This document shows, piece by piece, positions 16,091 through 63,770 of a DNA stretch of 64,000 bases. The translations under genes were made by a program, and so were the position numbers. A model generated the notes under the pieces. The model saw nothing but the letters and a program-made list of their open reading frames with translations, was not told where the DNA came from and searched no databases. Within the stretch, counting starts at the first letter, position 1; each line of letters opens with the position of its first letter. The DNA is from Protonemura montana (lineage: Eukaryota; Arthropoda; Insecta; Plecoptera; Nemouridae): positions 4,378,001 to 4,442,000 of the forward strand of contig OX387608.1 in assembly GCA_947568835.1 (NCBI GenBank), read 5' to 3'.

Positions 16091-18490
16091 TTTTGTGAGG
16101 GAAGCAGTGCAAACGATAAAAAAAAAAGTAAATACCATTCGGTGTTATTTTTAGACCCTCATGCGTGAGCCTGCAAGAATGTGCTATTCGGTGACATGAA
16201 AAGCAACGCAGTTTACTTCGATACGTGAAAACCCTTGGGATCCAAATCCAATGGTATATTTATGATGTCTGGTTAATCCGGCGACAAATCATTGATACCA
16301 ACCTGAGCTGCTGGTTTTATATCGAAGCGCATAAGTTTAGTGTCATAATGTTTTCGATCAAGGTTATGCATACTGATTCTGACGCAAAGGAATCCGATAA
16401 TAAATCGATTATGAATACCAAACAATTAATTTAAATAAACCGTTACAAATTTCGTTGAACAATCGATTGCGCGAAAAGCGTTTGAATTTGAAAACGCTCG
16501 AAATCGCGTCGACCATCTATTTGCCAATAAGCTATGAGAGTAACCCGACCTTGCCAATCTCTTGGTTATGTCGACCACATTGTCCCAATTTCATGCACCG
16601 CACCGGAGCGATCAGGTTTCAGCGCCTGCCAAGCCTCGGGGGGGTTCAGTCAAAAGTGAAACATGTAAACATAACATACTCTAACCACACTTGTTGTAGA
16701 GATTGACATCTTGAAGAATAACTCGTATGCCGCGGTGGAAAGGTTGCTGCGCGGTATCTGGACCTTTGATGAATCAATCGATTCGTTGGATTAGTTATTG
16801 GAAATGAAGTCAGGCGAGAGTTAGCTGTTTAATCGGACTCTGGAATCGGCATTGACACACTGTCTATAGCTGTGTAATTAATCAAGATAATTAGATTCAC
16901 GGCGTGTGAACTAATTTTAATTGAAATCTGGATTGGACGTTTTCATGTCAAAGGAAACTCGGAAAATTGACGAAGTTATGCTATTTATTTAATGCGACAT
17001 CTGGCAGTGATTTGGTTTAAATTACTATTATCTAGCTTATTTCGGATGGAGGGCAAACGATAATTTAAATCAACGCCTAAATTACCTCTTGCTGCATGCA
17101 CTTTCAATCTGAAAACATGTAATTCCTATGATCAATGCGTCATATTTATTTTTATACAAAAAAATCAATTGATTGGCGCCGATTTTATTATGCCAATTTC
17201 ATAATCTTGCTTACGCACTGTCGTTACGCAATGTGCGTAACGCAACAATGTTACCTCATTCATGTCAGCATCCCTTCACTCGGCTAGCTGTTTCCACTCC
17301 ACGACCTGTCCCAACCAGTCCCCAGTTGCAAACAGATACTCGTGGGATGCAGAAATAGACCCAAACAGGGCAAGCATTTTCCCTCAAGTGAAAGGAAAAC
17401 TAGGGAAATTCTCTGCGCTATTATTACATCCTCCATAAATAGTGAATAGCATAAAGTACAGTACATCTTGGCGTTGACCTGAACCGGTTAGGATTTTCGT
17501 CTCCCACGAATATCATTTTATTGGCTATGAAGATATTATGGCATACGGAATTAATGGCCGTTCCGTAATGGGAGTCGCCATAAACAACACTATTATTAAG
17601 TACATTTTTACTGTGGATACATCATGCGGATTCATTTTAAGAAACAGTTGGTTTTGCAACAACTTTACTGCTAGCTACATCGCGTACTTGGAACGTAAAA
17701 TCTAACGACATCTTATCATGAAATTAACTGTAGCTTATTACGTTAGCCGCTGCCTCGTCTGCTACGAGGAAAGAACGCCCCACGTGCAAGGATTACAGCT
17801 TTGTGCAAAAAGGATTACGAGTGGCAGAACTATAAACTCATTATTAACTCGGCTAGACCATGCAGTTACAGGGAATTAAAAAAAATAATTTAGCAATACC
17901 TTTGAATGGTTGCCGAAACGATTTAGAGCACATTTACGAGCGAAAAGATCCTGCACAAAGGTTGCAAAAATAGGCATGCTTCAAAATGAAAAACAATAAA
18001 ACTTTATCATATTGGCGTAGGTCGGTGTCCCACTGCATGTTGGATGTCTATCCTCAATCACATAACAAAATGGTCACAGGTAGGGGCTGGGGCAAGTTTT
18101 TTCTAATCTCTCACAACTTTCCATTGCTAGGACCGAATAATCACCGAGCCCAACATAAAAAGTACCCGCAATGACCAATAGCTACGATGATTAGGTACCC
18201 AATAAGTGGCGTCTTATCCGATTGGTTATCTGCAATTGCTTTCGGTTTCTAAGCTTACATGTGAGTCAATTAATTATTTCATGTTGTCCTAGAATTGGCC
18301 TGCTAATGTTAAGTTGAGGTTATGTTTTGAGTTCATGTTATATTCACTGCTACGGAGATTGTTACTGTCGTAGTTTATTGATTTTGGGGCCTTTTGTAGG
18401 TAAAACTTTCGATCAGAATGAATTGGACTGAAATTGTTAGTCTTTTTTGTTGTCAGTTCTGTTGAAACAAATATATGACCAAACTTATAT
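16091..18490. other. no gene seen
   Basis: Mostly unique AT-rich DNA. Open frames are short and not protein-like. No member of the repeat families was recognised. Confidence 0.5.
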
Positions 18491-19372
18491 GAGGTTCACT
18501 TGTAGATTCAAAGTTTGGTAGCCATGGAGATGATGAGATCGCCTGACAGAGCTTCTCAATTCTGCTATCTTATATTACCACGGGTATATCATGGCCTAGC
18601 ATAGGAGGTTCAATGGTAGATTCAACTTTTGGTAGCCATGGAGATGCTGAGATCGCCTGACAGAGCTTCTCAATTCTGCTATCTTATGTTACCACGGGTA
18701 TATCATGGCCTAGCATAGGAGGTTCAATGGTAGATTCAACGTTTAGTAGCCATGGAGATGCTGAGATCGCCTGACAGAGCTTCTCAATTCTGCTATCTTA
18801 TGTTACCACGGGTATATCATGGCCTAGCATAGGAGGTTCAATGGTAGATTCATCGTTTGGTAGCCATGAAGATGCTGAGATCGCCTGACAGAGCTTCTCA
18901 ATTCTGCTATCTTATGTTACCACGGGTATATCATGGCCTGGCATAGGAGGTTCAATGGTGGATTCAACGTTTGGTAGCCATGGAGATGCTGAGATCGCCT
19001 GACAGAGCTTCTCAATTCTGCTATCTTATGTTACCACGGGTATATCATGACCTAACATAGGAGGTTCAATGGTAGATTCAACGTTTAGTAGCCATGGAGA
19101 TGCTGAGATCGCCTGACAGAGCTTCTCAATTCTGCTATCTTATGTTACCACGGGTATATCATGGCCTAGCATAGGAGGTTCAATGGTAGATTCAACGTTT
19201 AGTAGCCATGGAGATGCTGAGATCGCCTGACAGAGCTTCTCAATTCTGCTATCTTATGTTACCACGGGTATATCATGGCCTAGCATAGGAGGTTCAATGG
19301 TAGATTCAACGTTCGATAGCCATGGAGATGCTGAGATCGCCTGACAGAGCTTCTCAATTCTGCTATCGTACC
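18491..19372 (+). repeat. 114-bp tandem repeat, about 7.7 copies
   Basis: GCCATGG marks recur at 18521, 18635, 18749, 18863 (GCCATGA), 18977, 19091, 19205 and 19319, exactly 114 bp apart. The unit runs GGTAGATTCAACGTTTGG ... GCTTCTCAATTCTGC ... TATATCATGGCCTAGCATAG. Copies differ by only a few substitutions. The last unit breaks off after TTCTGCTATC and runs into a tRNA-like sequence. Confidence 0.95.
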
Positions 19373-20804: not shown

Positions 20805-20965
20805 TGAGGTTTAACGACGCATTTTTTTTGACAATGGGCCATGCGGCACTGGTCTAATGGCGTCAGTAAGTGAGTGGATGATGATGAATCTAACCTAGAC
20901 TAGAAGGCAGTAGGACAAACCCGGTGCCGGTACTCCTGTCGAAGACCAAGAGGACCACCGGCTTT
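20805..20965 (-). mobile_element. 5S-rRNA-derived SINE, 3' part only
   Basis: TTTAACGACGCA, GGTCTAATGGCGTCAGT, CCCGGTGCCGGTACTCCTGT and GACCACCGGC are the reversed 3' half of the SINE of 25285-25690. The 5S-like head is absent (5'-truncated). Confidence 0.8.
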
Positions 20966-22130: not shown

Positions 22131-23190
22131 ATCGAAAGCATCTTCGGATAGCTTCGGGTAGCTTCGGGTAGCTTCGGGAAGCTTCGGATAGCTTCGGGTA
22201 GCTTCGGGTAGCTTCGGGTAGCTTCGGGTAGCTTCGGGTAGCTTCGGGTAGCTTCGGGTAGCTTCGGGTAGCTTCGGGAAGCTTCGGGAAGCTTCGGGAA
22301 GCTTCGGGAAGCTTCGGGCAGCTTCGGGAAGCTTCGGGCAGCTTCGGGCAGCTTCGGGAAGCTTCGGGCAGCTTCGGGAAGCTTCGGGCAGCTTCGGGTA
22401 GCTTCGGGAAGCTTCGGGAAGCTTCGGGCAGCTTCGGGCAGCTTCGGGAAGCTTCGGGCAGCTTCGGGAAGCTTCGGGCAGCTTCGGGTAGCTTCGGGAA
22501 GCTTCGGGCAGCTTCGGGTAGCTTCGGGAAGCTTCGGACATCTTCGGATAGCTTCGGGCAGCTTCGGGTAGCTTCGGGCAGCTTCGGGAAGCTTCGGGCA
22601 GCTTCGGGTAGCTTCGGGAAGCTTCGGGAAGCTTCGGGCAGCTTCGGGTAGCTTCGGGAAGCTTCGGGAAGCTTCGGGCAGCTTCGGGAAGCTTCGGGCA
22701 GCTTCGGGTAGCTTCGGGAAGCTTCGGGCAGCTTCGGGAAGCTTCGGGCAGCTTCGGGGAGCTTCGGGGAGCTTCGGGTAGCTTCGGGTAGCTTCGGGCA
22801 GCTTCGGATAGCTTCGGGTAGCTTCGGATAGCTTCGGGCAGCTTCGGGAAGCTTCGGGCAGCTTCGGGTAGCTTCGGGAAGCTTCGGGGAGCTTCGGGGA
22901 GCTTCGGGTAGCTTCGGGTAGCTTCGGGCAGCTTCGGGCAGCTTCGGATAGCTTCGGGTAGCTTCGGATAGCTTCGGGCAGCTTCGGGAAGCTTCGGGCA
23001 GCTTCGGGTAGCTTCGGGAAGCTTCGGGCAGCTTCGGGGAGCTTCGGGGAGCTTCGGGTAGCTTCGGGTAGCTTCGGGCAGCTTCGGATAGCTTCGGGTA
23101 GCTTCGGGCAGCTTCGGATAGCTTCGGGTAGCTTCGGGCAGCTTCGGGCAGCTTCGGATAGCTTCGGGCAGCTTCGGACAGCTACGAGTA
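22131..23190. repeat. 10-bp minisatellite (GCTTCGGGNA)n, about 105 copies
   Basis: The unit is GCTTCGGG followed by TA, AA, CA or GA (also CGGATA). Phase is kept for over 1 kb with essentially no indels. In the right half the variant order repeats with a higher-order period of about 13-15 units. The minus strand is open in all three frames and reads (SRSYPKLPEA)n, because 10 is not a multiple of 3 and the unit lacks stops. This explains the 366- and 145-codon ORFs here. Confidence 0.95.
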
Positions 23191-25284: not shown

Positions 25285-25690
25285 CCACCGAATGGTTTGG
25301 CGTGTTGGAAACATCGGTCCTCGTGAGATCACCGAAGTAAAGCAACACTGCGCTGAGTCAGGTATTGGATGGGTGACCACCATACACATGACCAGTTCTG
25401 TTCGGGAGAGAGGTTAAAGGGATGAAAGTTAGTACAGCAACTTTATTCGCCTCACTTATCAACCTCCCGACAGCATGGATTTGTGGAGGAATCCTGTTGT
25501 TCGCGTTGTACCGTCCTTCGGAAGGGACGTTAAGCCGGTGGTTCCCTTGGTGCTCTTCGACAGGAGTAGGCTACGTACCGGCACCGGGTTTTCCCACCGG
25601 CTAGGTAAAGTCCATCATCATCGTCACCACCCATTCATTCACTGACGCCATTAGACCAGTGCCACAGGGCCTGTTGGCCTGTTGCACAAT
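25285..25690 (+). mobile_element. 5S-rRNA-derived SINE, near full length
   Basis: The head CATCGGTCCTCGTGAGATCA + CCGAAG-TAAGCAACACTGCGC and TATTGGATGGGTGACCAC is clearly 5S rRNA-like, including the internal Pol III box A region (about 25333-25350) and box C region (about 25365-25380). The middle GTCCTTCGGAAGGGACGTTA followed by AGCCGGTGG resembles a central domain shared by many invertebrate SINEs (possibly the Inv domain; from memory). The tail is GACGCCATTAGACCAGTGCC. A 60-codon frame starting MKVSTATLFASLINL lies inside at 25422-25604. Confidence 0.9.
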
Positions 25691-25984
25691 TCTGCGAACA
25701 CCATGAACGTAGAGTCGCTCAAATATTTTCCTCTCACTCTACCAAACTCAATTCATTCCAACAATTTCATTAAAACTGTTTCCTTATTGACACAACTGTT
25801 TTTCTAGCACACACCTTTATATACATTGTTAACATGTGAAATACAATTCTTCCAAACTTACTCGCCACTAACCGTCAAGTGCCTGCACCTGTGACCGCCC
25901 TGCCTCGTCTGTCAAATCATGCCATACGGAATTAACAGACAAATAACAGCATTGTTATATCAACCTCGCCGTCAGGTGAAACCA

Positions 25985-26620
25985 AAGTGCACAGGTGACA
26001 GATTGATTAGTGGGGCTCAACGACGCACTGTTTTGACAACAATGAGTGGATGATGAAGAGGCTGATGATTAACCTAACCCAATCTAGAAAGGAGGAGGGG
26101 AAACCCGGTTCTGGTATGTAGCCGACTTCTGTCGAAGACCAAGGGGACCACCGGTATAACGTACCTTCCGAAGGACGGTACAACGCGAACAGCAGGATTC
26201 CTCCACAAATCTATGCTGTCGAGAGGTTGATAAGCAAGTCGAGTGAAGTTGCTGTACTAACTTTCATCCCTTCAACCTCTCTCCCGAATAGAACTGGACA
26301 TGTGTATGATGATCACCCATCCAATACTTGACTCAGCGCAGTGTTGCTTAACTTTCATCCCTCCAACCTCTCTCCTGAATAGAACTGGACATGTGTATGA
26401 TGATCACCCATCCAATACTTGACTCAGCGCAGTTTTGCTTAACTTTCATCCCTCCAACCTCTCTCCCGAATAGAACTGGACATGTGTATGATGATCACCC
26501 ATCCAATACTTGACTCAGCGCAGTGTTGCTTAACTTTCATCCCTCCAACCTCTCTCCCGAACAGAACTGGTCATGTGTATAATGGTCACCATCCAATGCT
26601 AGTGCACTGCAAGCGTAGTA
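25985..26620 (-). mobile_element. 5S-SINE with four tandem 91-bp head modules
   Basis: The 3' half (26000-26260) is followed on the plus strand by four repeats of a unit starting CTTTCATCCC at 26261, 26352, 26443 and 26534, spaced exactly 91 bp. Each holds CTCTCTCCCGAA-AGAACTGG, GATCACCCATCCAATACTTG (5S box C, reversed) and CAGCGCAGTGTTGCTTAA (box A, reversed). So the Pol III promoter-bearing head is amplified in tandem. Confidence 0.9.
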
Positions 26621-29901: not shown

Positions 29902-30820
29902 TTCAATGCACGCGGGTGTACGCAGTCCACCCAGTGATGGAGTGGTCAATGCACGCGGGTGTACGCAGTCCACCCAGTGATGTAGTGGTCAATGCACGCG
30001 GGTGTACGCAGTCCACCCATTGATGTAGTGGTCAATGCACGCGGGTGTACGCAGTCCACCCATTGATGTAGTGGTCAATGCACGCGGATGTACGCAGTCC
30101 ACGCAGTGATGTAGTGGTCAATGCACGCGGGTGTACGCAGTCCACCCAGTGATGTAGTGGTCAATGCATGCGGGTGTACGCAGTCCACCCAGTGATGTAG
30201 TGGTCAATGCATGCGGGTGTACGCAGTCCACCCAGTGATGTAGTGGTCAATGCACGCGGATGTACGCAGTCCACCTAGTGATGTAGTGGTCAATGCACGC
30301 GGGTGTACGCAGTCCACCCAGTGATGTAGTGGTCAATGCACGCGGGTGTACGCAGTCCACCCAGTGATGTAGTGGTCAATGCACGAGAGTGTACGCAGTC
30401 CACCCAGTGATGTAGTGGTCAATGCACGCGGGTGAATGCAGTCCACCCAGTGATGTAGTGGTCAATGCACGCGGGTGAATGCAGTCCACCCAGTGATGTA
30501 GTGGTCAATGCACGAGAGTGTACGCAGTCCACCCAGTGATGTAGTGGTCAATGCACGCGGGTGAATGCAGTCCACCCAGTGATGTAGTGGTCAATGCACG
30601 CGGGTGTACGCAGTCCACCCAGTGATGTAGTGGTCAATGCACGCGGGTGTACGCAGTCCACCCAGTGATATAGTGGTCAATGCTCGCGGGTGTGCGCAGT
30701 CCACCCAGTGATGTAGTGGTCAATGCACGAGAGTGTAAGCAGTCCACCCAGTGATGTAGTGGTCAATGCACGCGGGTGAATGCAGTCCACCCAGTGATGT
30801 AGTGGTCAATGCATGTGGTG
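29902..30820. repeat. 43-bp minisatellite, about 21 copies
   Basis: The unit starts GTGGTCAATGCACGCGGGTG, then TACGCAGTCCACCCAGTGATGTA. Variant units (CACGAGAGTG, GTGAATGCAG) recur in blocks, suggesting segmental expansion. Confidence 0.95.
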
Positions 30821-32244
30821 AATATCAAATAAGAAAATAAACGTTTAAATTATTTTCGATACCTATGTGAGTGGACATCAGGACAGCGTTGATTTAAAAA
30901 AAAAATGGTTGGCTACGGAGTCTTCTCTTGAAACTGTAAATAATTTAATTTTCACTAAAATATTGATGGAATGGCGAAGTGGTTCCGACGGTGGTAGATG
31001 GTTTTGCTCTGTTTTGATCGAGTTTAAATTCTAAAAAGGCACTATTTATTGGCAGTTTATTGGTTACGGTTATGACACAAATCATACATTAACCCTGTAT
31101 TTGACAGCTGCTTTTATAATTTTGTTCTTATTTCCCCCCCCGCTTATCTTGAAGTCAAGGTGACTTAGCCGATGTTAATGTTGCCAAGAAATCTCATAGT
31201 GGCCGTGCATCCCAACTATCGATGAGCCAGTGACAGCAAATTCATGACCCCATTGTTCTAGATCACCTAGTCTAGCCGCGCTCTATAAAATAAAATAAAA
31301 CAAAGTCAGTTTCCGATTCATAATGGATTGGATATTCAAATGTTAGGCACAAAGAATCGGCTGCCATAATCGAAATGAATATATACATTTTTATTTGAGC
31401 ATAAACAAAGGATGCATAGTGACAAAAGCTTCACTCGCACTGGCTTTTCCTTGTATAGTTGTGTGGAATTCTGTCAGCTGGAAATAACTAGTATTCTTCT
31501 GTATTGCGCTTTGTTACCTGTCCCGTCAGGCAGTGTAAAATAAAAACAAATTTTTTTTTTATAAAATGTATAATCGTTTGGTTGGACGTTGCATCGTTGT
31601 GACACGTCTCTAAAAAAGTTGAGATGAAATCACTGCATTATTAATATGCTGCACCATTGCAGCGTTGGTCATTCGTATTTTATGATCGGAACTGTGTAGA
31701 TTAGTTGGAAAATTGAGTTTTAAAACTCATTCAGTTTAATTTATCTTCCAGCTAAATAGTTGTGATGTTATTTTGTTTAATAATACCGTGTTTTGCTTCT
31801 AAAATGCCTGTAATTTTAGTTTTGTTCTTCTGGTTTTTCCATGACAAAGCTTTTAATGTTTCCGACAGAGGAGCCACCGGTCGTTCTGGGTTGACAATTT
31901 AAAAAAACCATCATCTCCGTTGATGTTCGCCATTTGCATTTTGGTTTAAAGCTTTTGTCGTGCCAAGATGTTCCGTTTTTCGAGTTATTTCCAGATTTTT
32001 CTATCAATCTTGGGAATTATTTGGCAGATATAATAAGAATTTGAAGTCCCGCCACTGAAATTACACTGCAATTCTGTTCATGACTTGATAGCACTGCTGG
32101 AAGACTGGTCCGTGTATCTTCTGTTCCGGGCTAGCAAACATTAATGTTCCAATATTAAGACAGAAGTTCAGAGTTAAGTTATGAACATTGTGCCACTATT
32201 ACAGAATTGCAGGCAGAGATTATAGAAAATAATAAAGTAATCAT
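30821..32244. other. no gene seen
   Basis: AT-rich unique DNA. The minus-strand frame at 31816-32007 has no recognisable motif. Confidence 0.5.
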
Positions 32245-32590
32245 ACACATGACCATCATACACATGACCAGTTCTGTTCGGGAGAGAGGTCGGAGGGATG
32301 AAAGTTAGCACAGCAACTTCACTCGCCTTGCTTATCAACCTCTCGACAGCATAATTTGTGCATAGATTTGCGTTGTACCGTCCTTCGGAAGGGACGTTAA
32401 GCCGGTGATCCCCTTGGTGCTCTTCAACAGGAGTAGGCTAAGTTCAGCCTCCGGGTTTGCCCTCCCCTTTTCTAGGCTAAATTAGGTTCATCATCATCCT
32501 CATCTTCATCCACTCATTAACCGACGCCATTAGACCAGTGCCACACGACCCGTTGTCAAAAAAGTGCGTCGTTAAACACAACTAATCAAT
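32245..32590 (+). mobile_element. 5S-SINE, 5'-truncated copy
   Basis: Starts within CATACACATGACCAGTTCTG, then the central GTCCTTCGGAAGGGACGTTA, and ends AAAGTGCGTCGTTAAACACA. The 5S-like head is missing. Confidence 0.85.
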
Positions 32591-33124: not shown

Positions 33125-33597
33125 GATTGATTATTGTGTTTAACGACGCACTATTTTCACAACAGTTCATGTCGCACTGGTCTAATGGCGTCGGTGAATG
33201 AGTGGGTGATGATGGACATAACCTAGCCTAGAAGGGAGGAGGGGAAACACAGTGCCGGCACGTAACATACTCCTGTCGAAGAGCACCAAGGGGACCACCG
33301 GCTTAACGTCCCTTCTGAAGGACGGTAAAACGTGAACAACAGGACTCCTCCACAAATCCATGCTGTCGAGAGGTTGATAAGCAAAGCGAATGAAGTTGTT
33401 GCACTAACTTTCATCCCACCAACCTCTCTCCCGAACAGAACTGGTCATGTGTATGATGGTCACCCATCCAATACCTGACCCAGCGCAGTGTTGCTTAACT
33501 TTCATCCCTCCAACCTCTCTCCCGAACAGAACTGGTCATGTGTATGATGGTCACCCATCCAATACCTGACCCAGCACAGTGTTGCTTAAATTTCATT
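33125..33597 (-). mobile_element. 5S-SINE with two head modules
   Basis: A complete reversed body (TTTAACGACGCACTATTTTC ... CAGGACTCCTCCACAAATCC) is followed by two 91-bp modules, CTTTCATCCC at 33408 and 33499. A 63-codon frame starting MKVSATTSFALLINL lies on the SINE sense strand (33414-33223). Confidence 0.9.
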
Positions 33598-33834
33598 CCC
33601 TAATTAAGCCATGGTAAATCACACAAAAAATAAAGCAAATGACATAAATAATAATCTTAAAAATGGCCAGATCTTCACTCTTAAACTATACAACTATGAT
33701 ATTAGGGTTTTTTCTCTCACTTGTAATAGATCGTTTGGCAGTGCTATGATTGATTATATACATATATCGCGCAGATGCGTTGTAAGGGTACTGTCTCCCG
33801 AATTCGCTCCAGTAATTGATTGATTGACTGATTG

Positions 33835-33965
33835 ATTGATTGAGTTATGTTTAACGACGCACTATTTCGACAACGGGCCTTGAAACACTGGTCTTTTAGC
33901 GTCTGTAAATGAGTGGTAGGTGTTGAGGGGTATTACGAACCTAACCTAGCTTGGAAGGAATGCAC
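33835..33965 (-). mobile_element. 5S-SINE 3' fragment
   Basis: GTTTAACGACGCACTATTTC, GACAACGGGCCTTG, then CTAACCTAGCTTGGAAGGA, after an (ATTG)n microsatellite (33816-33842). Truncated after the tail. Confidence 0.75.
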
Positions 33966-35700: not shown

Positions 35701-35709
35701 TGATCTGAT

Positions 35710-35855
35710 TTGTGGTGTTTAACGACGCGCTGTTTTGAAACGCGCTGTGGCATTGGTCTAATGGCGTCGGTGAATGAGAGGATGGTGATGAGTATGATGA
35801 TTAACCTAACCTAGTCTAGAAGGGAGGAGGGGAAACCCGGTGCTGTGACCTGATG
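35710..35855 (-). mobile_element. 5S-SINE 3' fragment
   Basis: GTTTAACGACGCGCTGTTTT, TGGCATTGGTCTAATGGCGT, CTAGTCTAGAAGGGAGGAGG, GGAAACCCGGTGCTG; truncated there. Confidence 0.85.
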
Positions 35856-37514: not shown

Positions 37515-37584
37515 CTAACCTAACCTAACCTAACCTAACCTAACCTAACCTAACCTAACCTAACCTAACCTAACATAACCTAAC
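37515..37584. repeat. interstitial telomere-type repeat (CCTAA)14, i.e. TTAGG on the minus strand
   Basis: Fourteen pentamers of CCTAA (one altered: TAACATAACC) run without indels. TTAGG is the ancestral arthropod telomere repeat. The tract is immediately followed by a GC-rich block, and ACCTAACC motifs recur near 38015-38060. Confidence 0.95.
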
Positions 37585-40559: not shown

Positions 40560-40800
40560 AGAATCAGAGTGACTGTGAGTATTCACAGCCTCTTGGTTCT
40601 ACTCCTTGGAGATCCGTCATTCTCATCAAATACACTAAAATCGTCTCAAAAAGCCAGTGTCCAAGTAGCTCAATGGGTCAGAGCAACACCCACGACAGGT
40701 GGAGATCGGGATTCGATTCCCCATTTGGGCATCAATTTTCGAGACGGTTAGAGTGTTTCTAATAATAAAATACCCCGCGCATTGCAAGCGTTTGCAATTT
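40560..40800 (+). mobile_element. tRNA-derived SINE, best copy
   Basis: The tRNA-like part is 40660-40732. GTCCAAG and TTTGGGC pair over all seven acceptor positions (with G-T pairs), GCTC/GAGC forms the D arm, and TAGCTCAATGG is a box A. ACACC-CACGACA-GGTGG is the anticodon arm and GATTCGATTCC the box B. A 5' part (CCTCTTGGTTCTACTCCTTG) precedes it. The 3' part ends CTAATAATAAAATACCCCGC + GCATTGCAAGCGTTTGCAATTTAAA. A second fragment of that 3' end (TGTTCCTAATAATAAAATAC) lies at 40428-40490. Confidence 0.85.
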
Positions 40801-41984: not shown

Positions 41985-42650
41985 TTTCTGGTGTAAAACG
42001 CCGCAGTGCTTCTGTAGAAACCGTCCTATCGTATTGGTGAATGAGTGGTTGATGATGTAGAAGATATCAAACCTTCTAATCTAATCTAGAAGGGAGGAGG
42101 GGAAACCCGGTGCCGGTACGTAGCTTACTCCTGTCGAAGAGCACCAAGGGGACCACCGGCTTAACGGCCCTTCCGAAGGACGGTACAACGCGAACAACAG
42201 GATTCCTCCACAAATCCATGCTGTCGAGAGGTTGATAAGCAAGGCGAGTGAAGTTGCTGTACTAACTTTCATCCCTCCAAGCTCTCTCCCGAACAGAACT
42301 GGTCATGTGTATGATGGTCACCCAATCAATACCTGACTCAGCGCATTGTTGCTTAACTTCGGTGATCTCACGAGGACCGGTGTTTCTAACACGCCAAACC
42401 GTCTGGTGGTCACCCATCCAATACCTGACCCAGCGCAGTGTTGCTTAACTTTCATCCCTCCAACCTATTTCCCGAACAGAACTGGTTATGTGTATGATGG
42501 TCACCCATCCAATACCTGACCCAGCGCAGTGTTGCTTAACTTTCATCCCTCCAACCTCTCTCCCGAACAGAACTTGTCATGTGTATAATGGTCACCCATC
42601 CAATACCTGACCCAGCGCAGTGTTGCTTAACCTCGGTGACTTTACGGTTG
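41985..42650 (-). mobile_element. 5S-SINE with dimeric head and three 91-bp modules
   Basis: After the reversed body (42010-42260) come one module (CTTTCATCCC at 42266), a full reversed 5S-like head (TTCGGTGATCTCACGAGGAC, ACACGCCAAACCGTCTGG), and then two more modules ending near 42640. Three CAGCGCA-TGTTGCTTAAC units are present. A 63-codon frame starting MKVSTATSLALLINL is on the SINE sense strand (42272-42081). Confidence 0.9.
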
Positions 42651-44902: not shown

Positions 44903-45747
44903 AGATTGACACCTATAACGAAAAATACAGACACAATTGCAGTTTGCACAGATATTGATCCAACAATTTTCTGAGACTGTCGAACCTTCAACCTCCCCCA
45001 TCTATCCATATGGTCTTAGCCACATAATAAATGACTTTTCAGCTTTGCATGCAACTGCAATAAAAGTGCATGAAACATACGGCAACCGCAAGCAATTCCG
45101 TTTCAGCCAGTGCGACCATTAGCAGCCGCAATTACCCTGCATTAAGTTCTAGCCACAAAACCACCTGCAATGCAAAGAGTGCACTTAATATCAGAAGTAA
45201 CGCTGCATAAAACTTGTTTTAATTTCAAACTTACACCTGAATTCGCTCCGGCGCTCTTCGTTATACCAAACTTTTGTAATTACATTCGTAAGAAGGTTGT
45301 ATCGTCTCCATCTTCTTTTCCTGGTTGATCCCGAGAAAAAAAAAAAAAATTTAAATTTAATTGGAGTTAGTAAAAACAGTTCCAGCAGCTAAAAAATATC
45401 TCGTTTAGTGCACATTTTCCGGAAAATCCATTCGAAAAAAAATTAAATATAAAACTGGATACAAATTATAAGGGTGGCTTTTCAAAATGGTTGTCTCGAG
45501 GTTTTTTTATGTGTAGTTTGGTAGTGTTAACAGATTGAAGAAATTTGGGATCCACAACTGCAACGAAAACTCTGATAACGCCTTTCACAGGCTCATTAAC
45601 AACGCGTGTAACTATAAGAAAAAATAATACGTTTGATTTTAAAAGGCGTTAATCTGTTACCAATAGTGTGAGGAGTCGCCTAGTTTTTGTTTCGTCGCGA
45701 TCGGACAAGTGGTTTGGCCGATTAGTTGAATCCAGTAAACCTAGATA

Positions 45748-47300
45748 TAGACCTGAGTAAGCTCCCACTCCAATAGACCTGAGTAAGCAGCCACTTCAAT
45801 ATACCTGAGTAAGCTCCCACTCCAATAGACCTGAGTAAGCTCCCACTCCAATAGACCTGAGTAAGCTCCCACTCCAATAGACCTGAGTAAGCTCCCACTC
45901 CAATAGACCTGAGTAAGCAGCCACTCCAATAGACCTGAGTAAGCTCCCACTCCAATAGACCTGAGTAAGCTCCCACTCCAATATACCTGAGTCAGCAGCC
46001 ACTCCAATAGACCTGAGTAAGCTCCCACTCCAATAGACCTGAGTAAGCTCCCACTCCAATAGACCTGAGTAAGCAGCCACTTCAATATACCTGAGTAAGC
46101 TCCCACTCCAATAGACCTGAGTAAGCTCCCACTCCAATAGACCTGAGTAAGCTCCCACTCCAATAGACCTGAGTAAGCTCCCACTCCAATAGACCTGAGT
46201 AAGCAGCCACTCCAATAGACCTGAGTAAGCTCCCACTCCAATAGACCTGAGTAAGCTCCCACTCCAATATACCTGAGTCAGCAGCCACTCCAATAGACCT
46301 GAGTAAGCTCCCACTCCAATAGACCTGAGTAAGCTCCCACTCCAATAGACCTGAGTAAGCTCCCACTCCAATAGACCTGAGTAAGCTCCCACTTCAATAG
46401 ATCTGAGTAAGCTCCCACTCCAATAGATCTGAGTAAGCTCCCACTCCAATAGACCTGAGTAAGCTCCTACTCCAATAGACCTGAGTAAGCTCCCACTCCA
46501 ATAGACCCGAGTAAGCTCCCAATCCAATAGACCTGAGTAAGCACCCACTCCAATAGACCTGAGTAAGCTCCCACTCCAATAGACCTGAGTAAGCTCCCAC
46601 TCCAATAGACCTGAGTAAGCTCCCACTCCAATAGACCTGAGTAAGCTCCCAATCCAATAGACCTGAGTAAGCACCCACTCCAATAGACCTGAGTAAGCTC
46701 CCACTCCAATAGACCTGAGTAAGCTCCCACTCCAATAGACCTGAGTAAGCTCCCACTCCAATAGACCTGAGTAAGCTCCCACTCCAATAGACCTGAGTAA
46801 GCAGCCACTCCAATAGACCTGAGTAAGCTCCCACTCCAATAGACCTGAGTAAGCTCCCACTCCAATAGACCTGAGTAAGCTCCCACTCCAATAGACCTGA
46901 GTAAGCACCCACTCCAATAGACATGAGTAAGCTCGCACTCCAATATACCTGAGTAAGCTCCCACTCCAATAGACCTGAGTAAGCTCCCACTCTAATAGAC
47001 CTGAGTAAGCTCCCACTCCAATAGACCTGAGTAAGCTCCCACTCCAATAGACCTGAGTAAGCTCCCACTCCAATAGACCTGAGTAAGCTACCACTCCAAT
47101 AGACCTGAGTAAGCTACCACTCCAATAGACCTGAGTAAGCTCCCACTCCAATAGACCTGAGTAAGCTCCCACTCCAATAGACCTGAGTAAGCTCCCACTC
47201 CAATAGACCCGAGTAAGCTCCCACTCCAATAGACCTGAGTAAGCTCCCACTCCAATAGACCCGAGTAAGCACCCACTCCAATAGACCTGAGTAAGCTCCC
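45748..47300. repeat. 26-bp minisatellite, about 60 copies
   Basis: The unit is GAGTAAGCTCCCACTCCAAT followed by AGACCT. Main variants are GCAGCCACT, GCACCCACT and CCAATATACC. The spacing stays 26 bp throughout. Because 26 is not a multiple of 3 and the minus strand lacks stops, all three minus frames encode the same cyclic 26-residue peptide (pieces GAYSGLLEWELTQVYWSGS, LLRSIGV), giving ORFs up to 503 codons. Confidence 0.95.
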
Positions 47301-49949: not shown

Positions 49950-50380
49950 CTGTTTTAACGAGCTCAGTGACACTGATATAACGGCATCGGTGAATGAGTG
50001 GGTTCTGATGAGAATGATGATGAATCTCACCTAGCCTAGACCAGAGGCGAGATGGGGAAATACGTTGCCATACGCTTGAGCACCGAAGAACGGTACAACG
50101 CGAACAACAGAATTTCTTACACAAATCCATGCTGCCGAGAGGTTGATAAGCAAGGCGAGTGAAGTTGCTGTACTAACTTTCATCCCTCCAACCTCTCTCC
50201 CGAACAGAACTTGTCATGTGTATGATGGTCACCCATCCAATACCCTACCCAGCACATTGTTGCGTACATTCGGTGATCTCACGAGTACCTGCGTTCCCAT
50301 CGCGTCAAACCGTTTGGTGGTCACCCATCCAAGACCTGACCCAGCGCAGTGTTGCATAACTTCGGTAATGTTCTCTGTGC
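49950..50380 (-). mobile_element. 5S-SINE with dimeric head
   Basis: Reversed tail (CGGCATCGGTGAATGAGTGG), a deletion in the central domain, then CTTTCATCCCTCCAACCTCT and two reversed 5S-like heads: CATTCGGTGATCTCACGAGT with CGCGTCAAACCGTTTGG, and a second ACCCAGCGCAGTGTTGCATA + ACTTCGGTAATG. Confidence 0.85.
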
Positions 50381-51379: not shown

Positions 51380-51570
51380 ATTGCAAACGCTTGCAATGCG
51401 CGGGGTATTTTTATTATAAACAACACTATAACCGTCTCAAAAATTGATGCCCAAACGCGAACTCGAACCCCAATCTCCACCTATCGCGGGTGTTGCTCTG
51501 AACCATTGAGCCATTTGGACACTGGCTTTTTGAGACGATTCTAGTGCATTTGATGAGAATGAGATGGGAA
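51380..51570 (-). mobile_element. tRNA-derived SINE
   Basis: TTGCAAACGCTTGCAATGCG (3' end), AACCGTCTCAAAAATTGATG, CCCCAATCTCCACCTATCGC and GAGCCATTTGGACACTGGCT (reversed tRNA-like head). The TAA-type repeat is altered (TTTATTATAAACAAC). Confidence 0.85.
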
Positions 51571-51695: not shown

Positions 51696-52270
51696 TAGGC
51701 CATACCTTGTAATAGGCCATACCTTGTAATAGGCCATACCTTGTAATAGACCATACCATGTAATAGGCCATACCATGTAATAGGCCATACCTTATAATAG
51801 GCCATACCTTGTAATAGGCCATACCTTGTAATAGGCCATACCTTGTAATAGGCCATACCTTGTAATAGGCCATACCTTGTAATAGGCCATACCTTGTAAT
51901 AGGTCATACCTTGTAATAGGCCATACCTTGTAATAGACCATACCATGTAATAGGCCATACCTTGTAATAGGCCATACCTTATAATAGGCCATACCTTGTA
52001 ATAGGCCATACCTTGTAATAGGCCATACCTTGTAATAGGCCATACCTTGTAATAGGCCATACCTTGTAATAGGCCATACCTTGTAATAGGCCATACCTTG
52101 TAATAGGCCATACCATGCAATAGACCATACCATGTAATAGGCCATACCTTGTAATAGGCCATACCTTGTAATAGGCCATACCTTGTAATAGGTCATACCT
52201 TGTAATAGACCATACCTTGTAATAGGCCATACCATGTAATAGGCCATACCATGTAATAGGCCATACCTTT
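51696..52270. repeat. 17-bp minisatellite (TAGGCCATACCTTGTAA)n, about 34 copies
   Basis: Units keep exact 17-bp spacing. Variants are CATACCATG, TAGACCATA, TAGGTCATA and CTTATAA. All three minus frames encode the same 17-residue cycle, MAYYKVWPITRYGLLQG, so several overlapping 66-155-codon ORFs appear. These are products of the repeat. Confidence 0.95.
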
Positions 52271-52689
52271 AATCGATACGTTCCCTCCATTATCAACTCA
52301 GTAATCTTTGGATAAATCATCCCCCAAGATTCCCAGGAGAAAAGGAAATATCCACCTTCAGTTTTCCCATGTTCCTGTAAAGCGGCTGAATTTTCCGGGA
52401 GCTAAATGTGATTTTAGAAAAAGTTTCGTGAAACGTGCGAGGGAAGAGAAATGATGAAAATGATTGAAAGAAAACTCGATTGTGCCTGGCCCTGATTTTC
52501 CGACATGTTCTTCGCTGCAAGGCTTGACGAACAAACATTCGACCGGGAAATCTGTTGTTTTACGTTTCCACTGCTGGATGGATTCCCTAGACCATTGAGT
52601 TTATACGTCAAGTTCGAGGTCCCGAGATGATGTTAAACTGTTTGCAGAAAACAATCGTCAGTTAAATTACTAAAATGAAAAAACTGGTA

Positions 52690-59774: not shown

Positions 59775-60175
59775 ACGAGATGAACCGGACGGTTTGGTCC
59801 TTGTGAGATCACAGAAGTTAAGCAACACTACACTGGGTCAGGTATTGATGGGTGACCATCATACACGTGACCAGTTCTGTTCGGGAGATAGGTTGGAGGG
59901 ATGAAAGTTAGTACAGCAACTTCATTCGCCTTGCTTATCAACCTCTCGACAGCATGAATTTGTAGAGGAATCCTGTTGTTCGCGTTGTACCGTCCTTCGG
60001 AAGGGACGTTAAGCCGGTGGTCCCCTTGGTGCTCTTCGACAGACGACGAGTTCCTCGCACTTCTTGTAAGCTAGGTTAGGTTCATCATCATACTCGTCAT
60101 CAACCACTCATTCATCAGCGCTACTTGACCAGTTCCTCAAAGACCTTTGTCAAAACAGTGCAACGTTTAGATACC
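59775..60175 (+). mobile_element. 5S-SINE, near full length
   Basis: The head GGACGGTTTGGTCCTTGTGA, GATCACAGAAGTTAAGCAAC and GGTATTGATGGGTGACCATC is 5S-like. The central GTCCTTCGGAAGGGACGTTA is present. The tail is CAGTGCAACGTTTAGATACCA. The internal short frame is interrupted by TGA. Confidence 0.9.
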
Positions 60176-60215
60176 ACAAACTAGAAAAAACTTAACCGAC
60201 CACAGAAACACTAAC

Positions 60216-60920: not shown

Positions 60921-61880
60921 GCATGGAACCGTCGAGTGTGCAGGCTATAGGTAGAGGCAGAACGTTAATGTTAAACCGTTGAGTGTGCAGGTTCTAGGTA
61001 GAGGCAGAACGTTAATGTTAAACCGTTGAGTGTGCAGGTTCTAGGTAGAGACAGAACTTTAATGTTAAACCGTTGAGTGTGCAGGTTCTAGGTAGAGGCA
61101 GAACGTTAATGTTAAACCGTTGAGTGTGCAGGTTCTAGGTAGAGACAGAACTTTAATGTTAAACCGTTGAGTGTGCAGGTTCTAGGTAGAGACAGAACGT
61201 TAATGTTAAACCGTTGAGTTTGCAGGTTAAAGGTAGAGACTGAACTTTAATGTTAAACCGTTGAGTGTGCAGGTTCTAGGTAGAGGCACAACGTTAATGT
61301 TAAACCATTGAGTGTGCAGGTTTTAGGTAGAGGCAGAACGTTAATATTAAACTTTCTGCGTGAAAGATGGCCGCCAAATGACTAATTTACCGACAAAAAT
61401 GCAGAGTTCCGGAACACGCCGTTAAGTGGAGCCACTGTCATATGAAATTTTATTTCGATGTTTCTCGTAGGTTACTCACTTTTGAATATCGTGACGTGTA
61501 TATCAATCGTTGAGGTTAACATTGATGGAGATCTTTTGAGCATGAAAAGTCTCAAAAGCGAGTAAGCCTACGAGAAATATCGAAATTAAATTTCATACGA
61601 CAGTGGCTCCACTTAACGTGATGTTCCGGTACTCTGCATTTTTGTCGGTAAGGTAGTCATTTGGCGGCCATCTTTCACGCAGAAAGTTTAACATTAACGT
61701 TCTGCCTCTACCTATAACCTGCACACTCAACGGTTTAACATTAACGTTCTGTCTCTACCTAGAACCTGCACACTCGACGGTTTAATATTAACGTTCTGCA
61801 TCTACCTATAAGCTACACACTCAACAGTTTAACACTAAGGTACTGCCTCTACTCAGAACCTGCACACTCAACGCTAGAAC
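60921..61880. mobile_element. foldback element with 47-bp tandem repeats in its arms
   Basis: The left arm (60921-61485) is about nine 47-bp units (CCGTTGAGTGTGCAGGTTCT + AGGTAGAGGCAGAACGTTAA) followed by about 135 bp of unique arm (CTTTCTGCGTGAAAGATGGC, GCAGAGTTCCGGAAC, GTGGAGCCACTGTCATATGA). The right arm (61552-61880) is the reverse complement with about four 47-bp units. The 66-nt loop (61486-61551) contains TATCAATCGTTGAGGTTAAC, the family-T core. The structure matches the foldback (FB) class: long inverted repeats built from tandem repeats. No ORF is inside. Confidence 0.9.
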
Positions 61881-63244: not shown

Positions 63245-63690
63245 GACTAAACGGTTGGGCGTGTAGGAAACACTGCTTCTCATGAGATCACCGAAGTTAA
63301 GCAACACTGCGCTAGGTCAGGTATTGGATGGGTGACCATCATACACATTACCAGTTCTGTTCGGGAGAGAGGTTGGAGGGATGAAAGTTAGTACAGCAAC
63401 TTCACTCGCTTGCTTATCAGCCTCTCGACAGCATGGATTTGTGGAGACATCCTGTTGTTTGAGTTGTACCGTCCTTTGGAAGGGACGTTAAGCTGGTGGT
63501 TCCCTTGGTGCTATTCGACAGGATTAGGCTACGTGCCGGCACCGGGTTTCCCCTTTTGCCTTCTAGGCTCGGTTAGATTCATCATGATCCTCATCATAAT
63601 CCACTCATTTACCGACGCCATTAGAGCAGTGCCGCATGGCTAGATGTCAAAACAGTGCGTCGTTAAACACCACTAATAATAATAATAATA
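63245..63690 (+). mobile_element. 5S-SINE, full length with (AAT)n tail
   Basis: The head CTTCTCATGAGATCACCGAA, GTTAAGCAACACTGCGCTAG and TATTGGATGGGTGACCATCA is 5S-like. The body is complete, ending CAGTGCGTCGTTAAACACCA and an (AATAAT)n tail. The internal frame is open (MLISLSTAWICGDILLF...). Confidence 0.9.
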
Positions 63691-63694
63691 ATAA

Positions 63695-63770
63695 TAAATT
63701 ACGCCATTAGACCAGTTTCGCATGGCCAGATGTTAAAACAGTGCGTCGTTGAACACCACAAATAAATGTA
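63695..63770 (+). repeat. extra 5S-SINE 3' end fragment
   Basis: ACGCCATTAGACCAGTTTCG, CAGTGCGTCGTTGAACACCA repeats the final ~70 bp of the preceding SINE directly after its AAT tail. Confidence 0.85.

Follow-up and report, generated by a model that had tools for sequence, protein, structure and literature searches.

A 5S rRNA-headed SINE with tandem 91-bp modules in Protonemura montana and its probable growth into satellite arrays

The stretch of DNA analysed here (64,000 nucleotides, C11:4378001-4442000; called the window) contains SINEs with a 5S rRNA-like promoter head, parts of which appear repeatedly at a spacing of 91 bp. This raises the questions of which part of the element is repeated, whether the repeats were inserted as multimers or multiplied within inserted copies, and whether several promoters in series serve the element. 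Copies in the window were compared with the host's own 5S gene and with junctions, heads and bodies found throughout the assembly (258 Mb, 34 contigs).

Anatomy of the element and its copies in the window

Three Rfam 5S matches in the window, each exceeding the gathering score of 38, together with an alignment of the SINE consensus to the host's own 5S gene (119 bp; 68 identities in 78 columns over 5S positions 17-92) bear out the initial annotation, which had derived the SINE head from 5S rRNA. The alignment contains two single-base gaps on each side that cancel out; its first ~50 paired bases are ungapped, so that counting back from box A places base 1 of the SINE at 5S +1. The consensus, built largely from multimers, divides into a head start A (51 bp), a module M (91 bp) and a part B comprising body and tail (291 bp), and the monomer A-M-B therefore measures 433 bp. 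M consists of 41 bp of 5S (positions 52-92) and 50 bp of non-5S body. The repeated unit had been described as the head plus adjoining body; the body segment stands, and of the head it is the 3' part alone (5S 52-92) that is repeated. The SINE ends in CGTCGTTAAACACCACAAAT followed by a short A+T-rich repeat. The three-module consensus holds no TTTT and thus lacks a built-in Pol III terminator. With a 5S-derived head carrying boxes A, IE and C (their limits presumed from vertebrate 5S genes), seen in both the host alignment and the Rfam matches, and with the target-site duplications described below, the family is, as judged from its sequence, one of SINE3-type (5S rRNA-headed) retroposons in an arthropod genome.

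The window contains 14 match groups, four of them with multiple modules or heads (Table 1). The stretch 25285-26620, originally taken for one SINE, holds two separate SINEs on opposite strands, ~335 bp apart. The 91-bp repeats are present there and the period of the four repeats reported is correct; they amount to 3.7 modules, however, and belong to a 5'-truncated element. TRF returned 91-bp arrays at 26258-26597 (3.7 copies), 33397-33601 (2.2 copies) and 42263-42631 (4.0 copies), the second of which agrees with the two modules annotated at 33408 and 33499. Second heads were likewise recovered in the copies at 42266-42640 and 49950-50380, with the correction that M1-41 is followed there by a head start across a 92-bp junction.

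Table 1. SINE copies and fragments in the window (A, head start; M, module; B, body and tail).
Feature	Position	Strand	Parts and evidence
Diverged body fragment	20809..20964	-	B104-282, 77%
Monomeric 5S-headed SINE	25286..25671	+	A 25286-25337, M 25338-25428, B from 25429, tail ends at B255; blastn of parts; Rfam 5S_rRNA 25287-25407, 53.3 bits
Multimeric SINE, 5'-truncated, without head start A, 3.7 modules	26006..26597	-	Body 26006-26260, modules 26261-26351, 26352-26442 and 26443-26533, partial module 26534-26597; TRF, blastn
Headless SINE copy	32238..32586	+	From M42 (just past the 5S part, 15 bp doubled), M42-91, body; 12-bp perfect flanking repeat AATAATAAAGTA
SINE copy, two 91-bp modules and body, without head start	33136..33589	-	
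Diverged body fragment	33848..33958	-	B173-283, 78%
3' fragment of 5S-headed SINE	35708..35843	-	B153-291
SINE copy with internal second head start (92-bp type)	42036..42630	-	M-M-M(1-41)-A-M-B; Rfam 5S 42288-42406, 46.9 bits
SINE copy with two heads, 92-bp junction type	49967..50359	-	M(1-41)-A-M-B
SINE copy, one module and body	59818..60180	+	Head start internally deleted just upstream
Monomeric SINE, 3' tail doubled	63250..63763	+	B229-291 doubled after AAT run; Rfam 5S 63247-63365, 46.4 bits

Two copies depart from this anatomy in other ways. The doubled 3' tail of the SINE at 63247-63763 perhaps reflects slippage during reverse transcription. Transcription from any inner promoter would be predicted to start at M41; the headless copy at 32238 begins at M42 and has its 12-bp repeat, but no complete module follows, so that it gives no evidence of such a start.

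Module junctions and insertion by retroposition

At the 91-bp junction the module end GATGAAAG is joined to TTAAGCAAC, with which the following module begins, to give AAGTTAAGCAAC, as in the host 5S gene. The junction falls inside the shared AAGTTA and restores box A, so that a complete A-IE-C promoter is present in every module; across two joined modules the alignment to 5S extends over positions 49-92, and the three boxes stand in each unit at their native net spacing if the limits assumed from vertebrate 5S genes are applied. Genome-wide, the junction gave 24,315 matches with at most one mismatch and 0 for the reversed control, far above chance, and at 91 bp each these correspond to 0.86% of the genome. 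Body entries (7,814) and head ends (7,207) were fewer, again with reversed controls of 0. The second junction type, at 92 bp, leads from the head to a new head start, with a further A placed directly behind a module cut short at M1-41, and it was found 2,021 times with at most two mismatches (control 0). The modules seen in the window are thus real and genome-wide. Searched for in viral contigs, the exact junction gave 0 matches.

Elements of the form A-nM-B were found with n = 3 (left copy at locus L050), 4 (L006 and L007), 5 (L005 and the right copy at L050), 8 (L003) and 14 (L004), and the array at 62 kb of contig C1 holds 22 units with neither head nor body. As in SINE-derived satellites, tandem units made of a SINE part are accompanied by end units that reach the SINE termini. 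Both junction types occur in the same copy at 42036-42630 of the window and at L006:429-1198; the latter is a mosaic array of 91-bp modules and 92-bp head-to-head joins adjoining a four-module SINE.

Flanking repeats with a score of at least 8 surround 7 of the 19 elements tested, compared to 3.2% of 342 mismatched flank pairs, and in its target-site duplications the element therefore behaves as the SINE it had been taken for. Such duplications flank multimers with 3 (L050), 5 (L005) and 14 (L004) modules, indicating that the arrays lie inside retroposed units. The seven also include a monomer at L031 that sits inside another SINE and has an 11-bp perfect flanking repeat; the eight-module element at L003 has one of 10 bp with one mismatch (score 7). 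The flanking repeat GTGCACT (7 bp) of the element at 26006..26597 also scores 7, which is the 95th percentile of the null, and is suggestive at most. A Pol III transcript starting at the 5S-equivalent +1 would be copied by a LINE, and its copies would be those found inserted with short target-site duplications. On C1, the minus strand of L036 (6688-9780) holds an open frame of 1031 residues in which, by eye, the endonuclease and reverse transcriptase of a non-LTR retrotransposon seem recognizable; the SINE body had no match in this stretch.

Growth of the arrays and competing explanations

The 115 full modules compared, drawn from 18 loci, carry 53 rare variants between them. Of 279 module pairs sharing a rare variant, 146 lay within one element, far more than the mean of 24.6 and the maximum of 52 in 1000 permutations. 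Sharing peaked between neighbouring modules and again at distance four (32 pairs each), and at L008 module similarity was also highest at distance four. Variants are thus locus-specific, as in SINE-derived satellites, with a weak overall contrast in distance: the average distance between modules of one element (3.85) is little lower than between those of different elements (4.37), and in 6 of the 16 elements with at least two modules (both L050 copies, the window copy at 42036, L006:1427, L008 and the 62-kb array on C1) the internal distance is at or above the between-element mean. Taken together, multimers flanked by target-site duplications and the clustering of rare variants within elements indicate that arrays grow inside insertions.

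A possible starting point is built into the monomer, in which two similar stretches lie ~91 bp apart, CCGAAGTTA-AGCAAC in the head and GATGAAAGTTAGTACAGCAAC in the body. Unequal exchange or slippage between them would duplicate the intervening 91 bp, and the 91-bp junction is the product that would be expected from an exchange within AAGTTA. Once two units are present, their 91-bp homology would permit growth of the array, the local sharing of variants that is observed, and higher-order units, while head-to-head joining at 92 bp would provide a second register. The one junction common to the copies suggests that formation of the first dimer was rare and that short multimers were also retroposed. 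Many unrelated minisatellites are present in the window (18487-19367, 22142-23177, 29903-30813, 45747-47300, 51696-52273 and 60927-61352; periods of 114, 10, 43, 26, 17 and 47 bp), and the genome seems generally prone to tandem growth.

The growth proposed here would be concentrated near chromosome ends. Over the first 23.3 Mb of C1, where positions are those among the matches listed (first 100 exact places each for junction, body and head) and the 33 junction clusters were merged by hand, 21 of 33 junction clusters lie in the first 2.5 Mb versus 20 of 86 body clusters (p = 7e-5). On C1, 24 of the first 100 exact heads listed lie no more than 3 kb from an exact body entry; 17 of these pairs hold one module (three with distances corresponding to 0.64, 0.89 and 1.14 modules) and the others 2, 3, 5, 5, 6, 8 and 22.4, the last being a non-integer distance of 2040 bp. 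Monomers account for 2 of the 8 pairs in the first 2.5 Mb and for 15 of the 16 beyond it (p = 0.0013). A sample of 20 evenly spaced 10-kb stretches of C1 yielded 14 match groups; one was a false match resembling a microsatellite, and no group contained two consecutive modules.

Across contigs, with the lengths of C2, C3, C12 and C16 entering as lower bounds, the outer fifths hold 39 of the 40 best multimers (window copy dropped) and 19 of 27 trimers, as against 10 of 31 monomers of full length (trimers versus monomers, Fisher p = 0.008). The arrays thus prefer chromosome ends, as SINE-derived satellites do, and the monomer count is to be read as a lack of end bias, not as avoidance of ends. 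Some of the multimers near the ends seem to have arisen from a single insertion by segmental duplication, so that the 39 of 40 are not independent; seven matches of the trimer search are of about equal total length (679 bp in at least six). All 17 clusters of exact 92-bp-type sites on C1 and C4 map to the outer fifths, and C2 and C3 show gaps of more than 20 Mb free of such sites; on C5 (20.9 Mb) the sites also occur at 13-14.5 Mb and thus not in the outer fifths alone. The L050 SINE and its immediate flanks have a 100% identical copy on another contig (G000:C4:25480778-25481413), evidently a recent duplication.

We consider it probable that a 5S-type SINE retroposes and that its inserted copies become satellites by growth of the 91-bp module, chiefly near chromosome ends. 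Against this, besides the weak contrast in module distance, the duplicated multimers and the C5 sites noted above, stands that 27 further dispersed trimers could equally be retroposed trimers. The same trimers, full-ended and 93-96% identical to the L050 trimer, speak for an adaptive origin, in which several A-IE-C units would improve TFIIIA/TFIIIC binding, raise transcription and make multimeric masters that are retroposed; the complete 5S-type promoter in each module and the target-site duplications around multimers of 3, 5 and 14 modules fit this as well. We nevertheless regard it as unlikely: rare variants cluster within elements, as expected from multiplication after insertion, the exact head-body pairs on C1 are mostly monomers (17 of 24 among the matches listed), and the 27 trimers came from a trimer query of which the best 40 candidates were scored, which biases the sample toward trimers. 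If the arrays grow as satellites, the additional promoters would need no function.

Tandem arrays misassemble readily, yet an origin of these arrays as assembly artefacts is highly improbable, since modules inside arrays differ among themselves, the arrays seen in full are ~2 kb or less and the junctions are dispersed over many contigs. Least credible of all, and rejected, is a larger foldback-like DNA transposon with the arrays as its terminal inverted repeats. Several C1 arrays forming inverted pairs ~3.4 kb apart and a 222-bp flank-plus-head stretch at L050 with an inverted copy identical at 221 of 222 positions might suggest it, but the interiors of L049 and L050, the two pairs compared, have no common match outside the SINE; at L050, moreover, a separate target-site duplication flanks the left SINE, whose body differs from that of the right copy by ~5%. 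The inverted 222-bp copies (positions 31-252 and 4179-4400 of L050, C1:8952101-8956500) adjoin SINEs with 3 and 5 modules and look like the result of an ectopic exchange between two inverted SINEs.

Comparison with known systems and possible meaning

The t-SINEs of colugos have dimeric and trimeric heads, and thus likewise carry several small-RNA heads per element; these are tRNA heads, not 5S. A tandemly repeated 5S-SINE head was not found among the matches listed from the open-licence literature. The view that multimeric heads are unusual has to be narrowed, as tandems of SINE head and body parts are known from squamates, while the 5S head and the full promoter per unit differ. In the part of PMC10702118 drawn on here, the SINE-derived satellites (sSats) of squamates have a tandem unit in which the 3' portion of the head is joined to a stretch of body (67 nt in snakes), locus-specific subvariants and a subtelomeric preference. 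The arrays described here have in common with them the anatomy of the unit, the longer end units reaching the SINE terminus, the locus-specific subvariants, sizes from two units to long arrays and the preference for chromosome ends (PMC10702118, same part). They differ in that the squamate units derive from tRNA-headed Squam SINEs and contain box B only, whereas here a 5S head provides a complete A-IE-C per 91 bp, and also in their two registers (91 and 92 bp), the target-site duplications around several arrays and the arthropod host. What is novel relative to the squamate satellites is the 5S head with a complete promoter in each unit.

Among insect SINEs, HaSE3 (PMC3272025) and PxSE4/PxSE5 (PMC8010984) have, in the sections of these papers used here, the same 5S-like A-IE-C head, body, microsatellite-like tail and target-site duplications; unlike the present family they have a single head and a known partner LINE, and the word "tandem" is absent from the main text of both papers. 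Ajax and Cassandra likewise use a captured 5S stretch as promoter, of which Ajax retains just the A-IE-C region, but they are LTR retrotransposons, and the part of PMC10886601 used here describes no tandem modules in them. Satellites from a promoter-bearing SINE region are likewise represented by Hydromantes Hy/Pol III and Xenopus Satellite 1, which are tRNA-related (PMC9659126, in the portion used).

Conversion of a SINE into a satellite would thus occur in an arthropod with the anatomy and the chromosome-end bias known from reptiles and with another promoter class. This points to a general way in which retroposons may turn into satellites; the seed here would be a direct repeat that the element itself contains. 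As each duplication restores a complete 5S internal promoter, the 24,315 additional promoter units would form a reservoir. The multiple promoters may conceivably have a function, and the initial annotation proposed that they might raise or alter Pol III transcription; what is observed here speaks for recombination within inserted copies. More specifically, thousands of arrays, densest near chromosome ends, could act as a large reservoir of TFIIIA/TFIIIC sites, with possible titration, boundaries of Pol III factors in distal chromosome regions, nested transcripts from successive modules and an advantage of multimers in transposition, a proposal to which we give little credence at present. With 1, 2, 3, 5, 8, 14 or more complete promoter units in its copies, the element also provides a natural experiment in serial type 1 Pol III promoters.

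Other repeats were noted alongside the SINE. Host 5S genes are located at the start of C11 (C11:1-106000; L041-L048) in units of ~9.5 kb with three 5S genes each. The open frames beside one of these genes are, as we presume by eye, histones H2A and H2B, and the units read as linked 5S-histone repeats. Together with the interstitial repeat mentioned below, they fit an arthropod host. In the window, two predicted tRNA-Ser (CGA) on opposite strands (40658-40733 and 51446-51521) are either genes or tRNA-headed repeats, and 37515-37584 is an interstitial (CTAAC)14, which we take to be the TTAGG-type telomere repeat of many arthropods.
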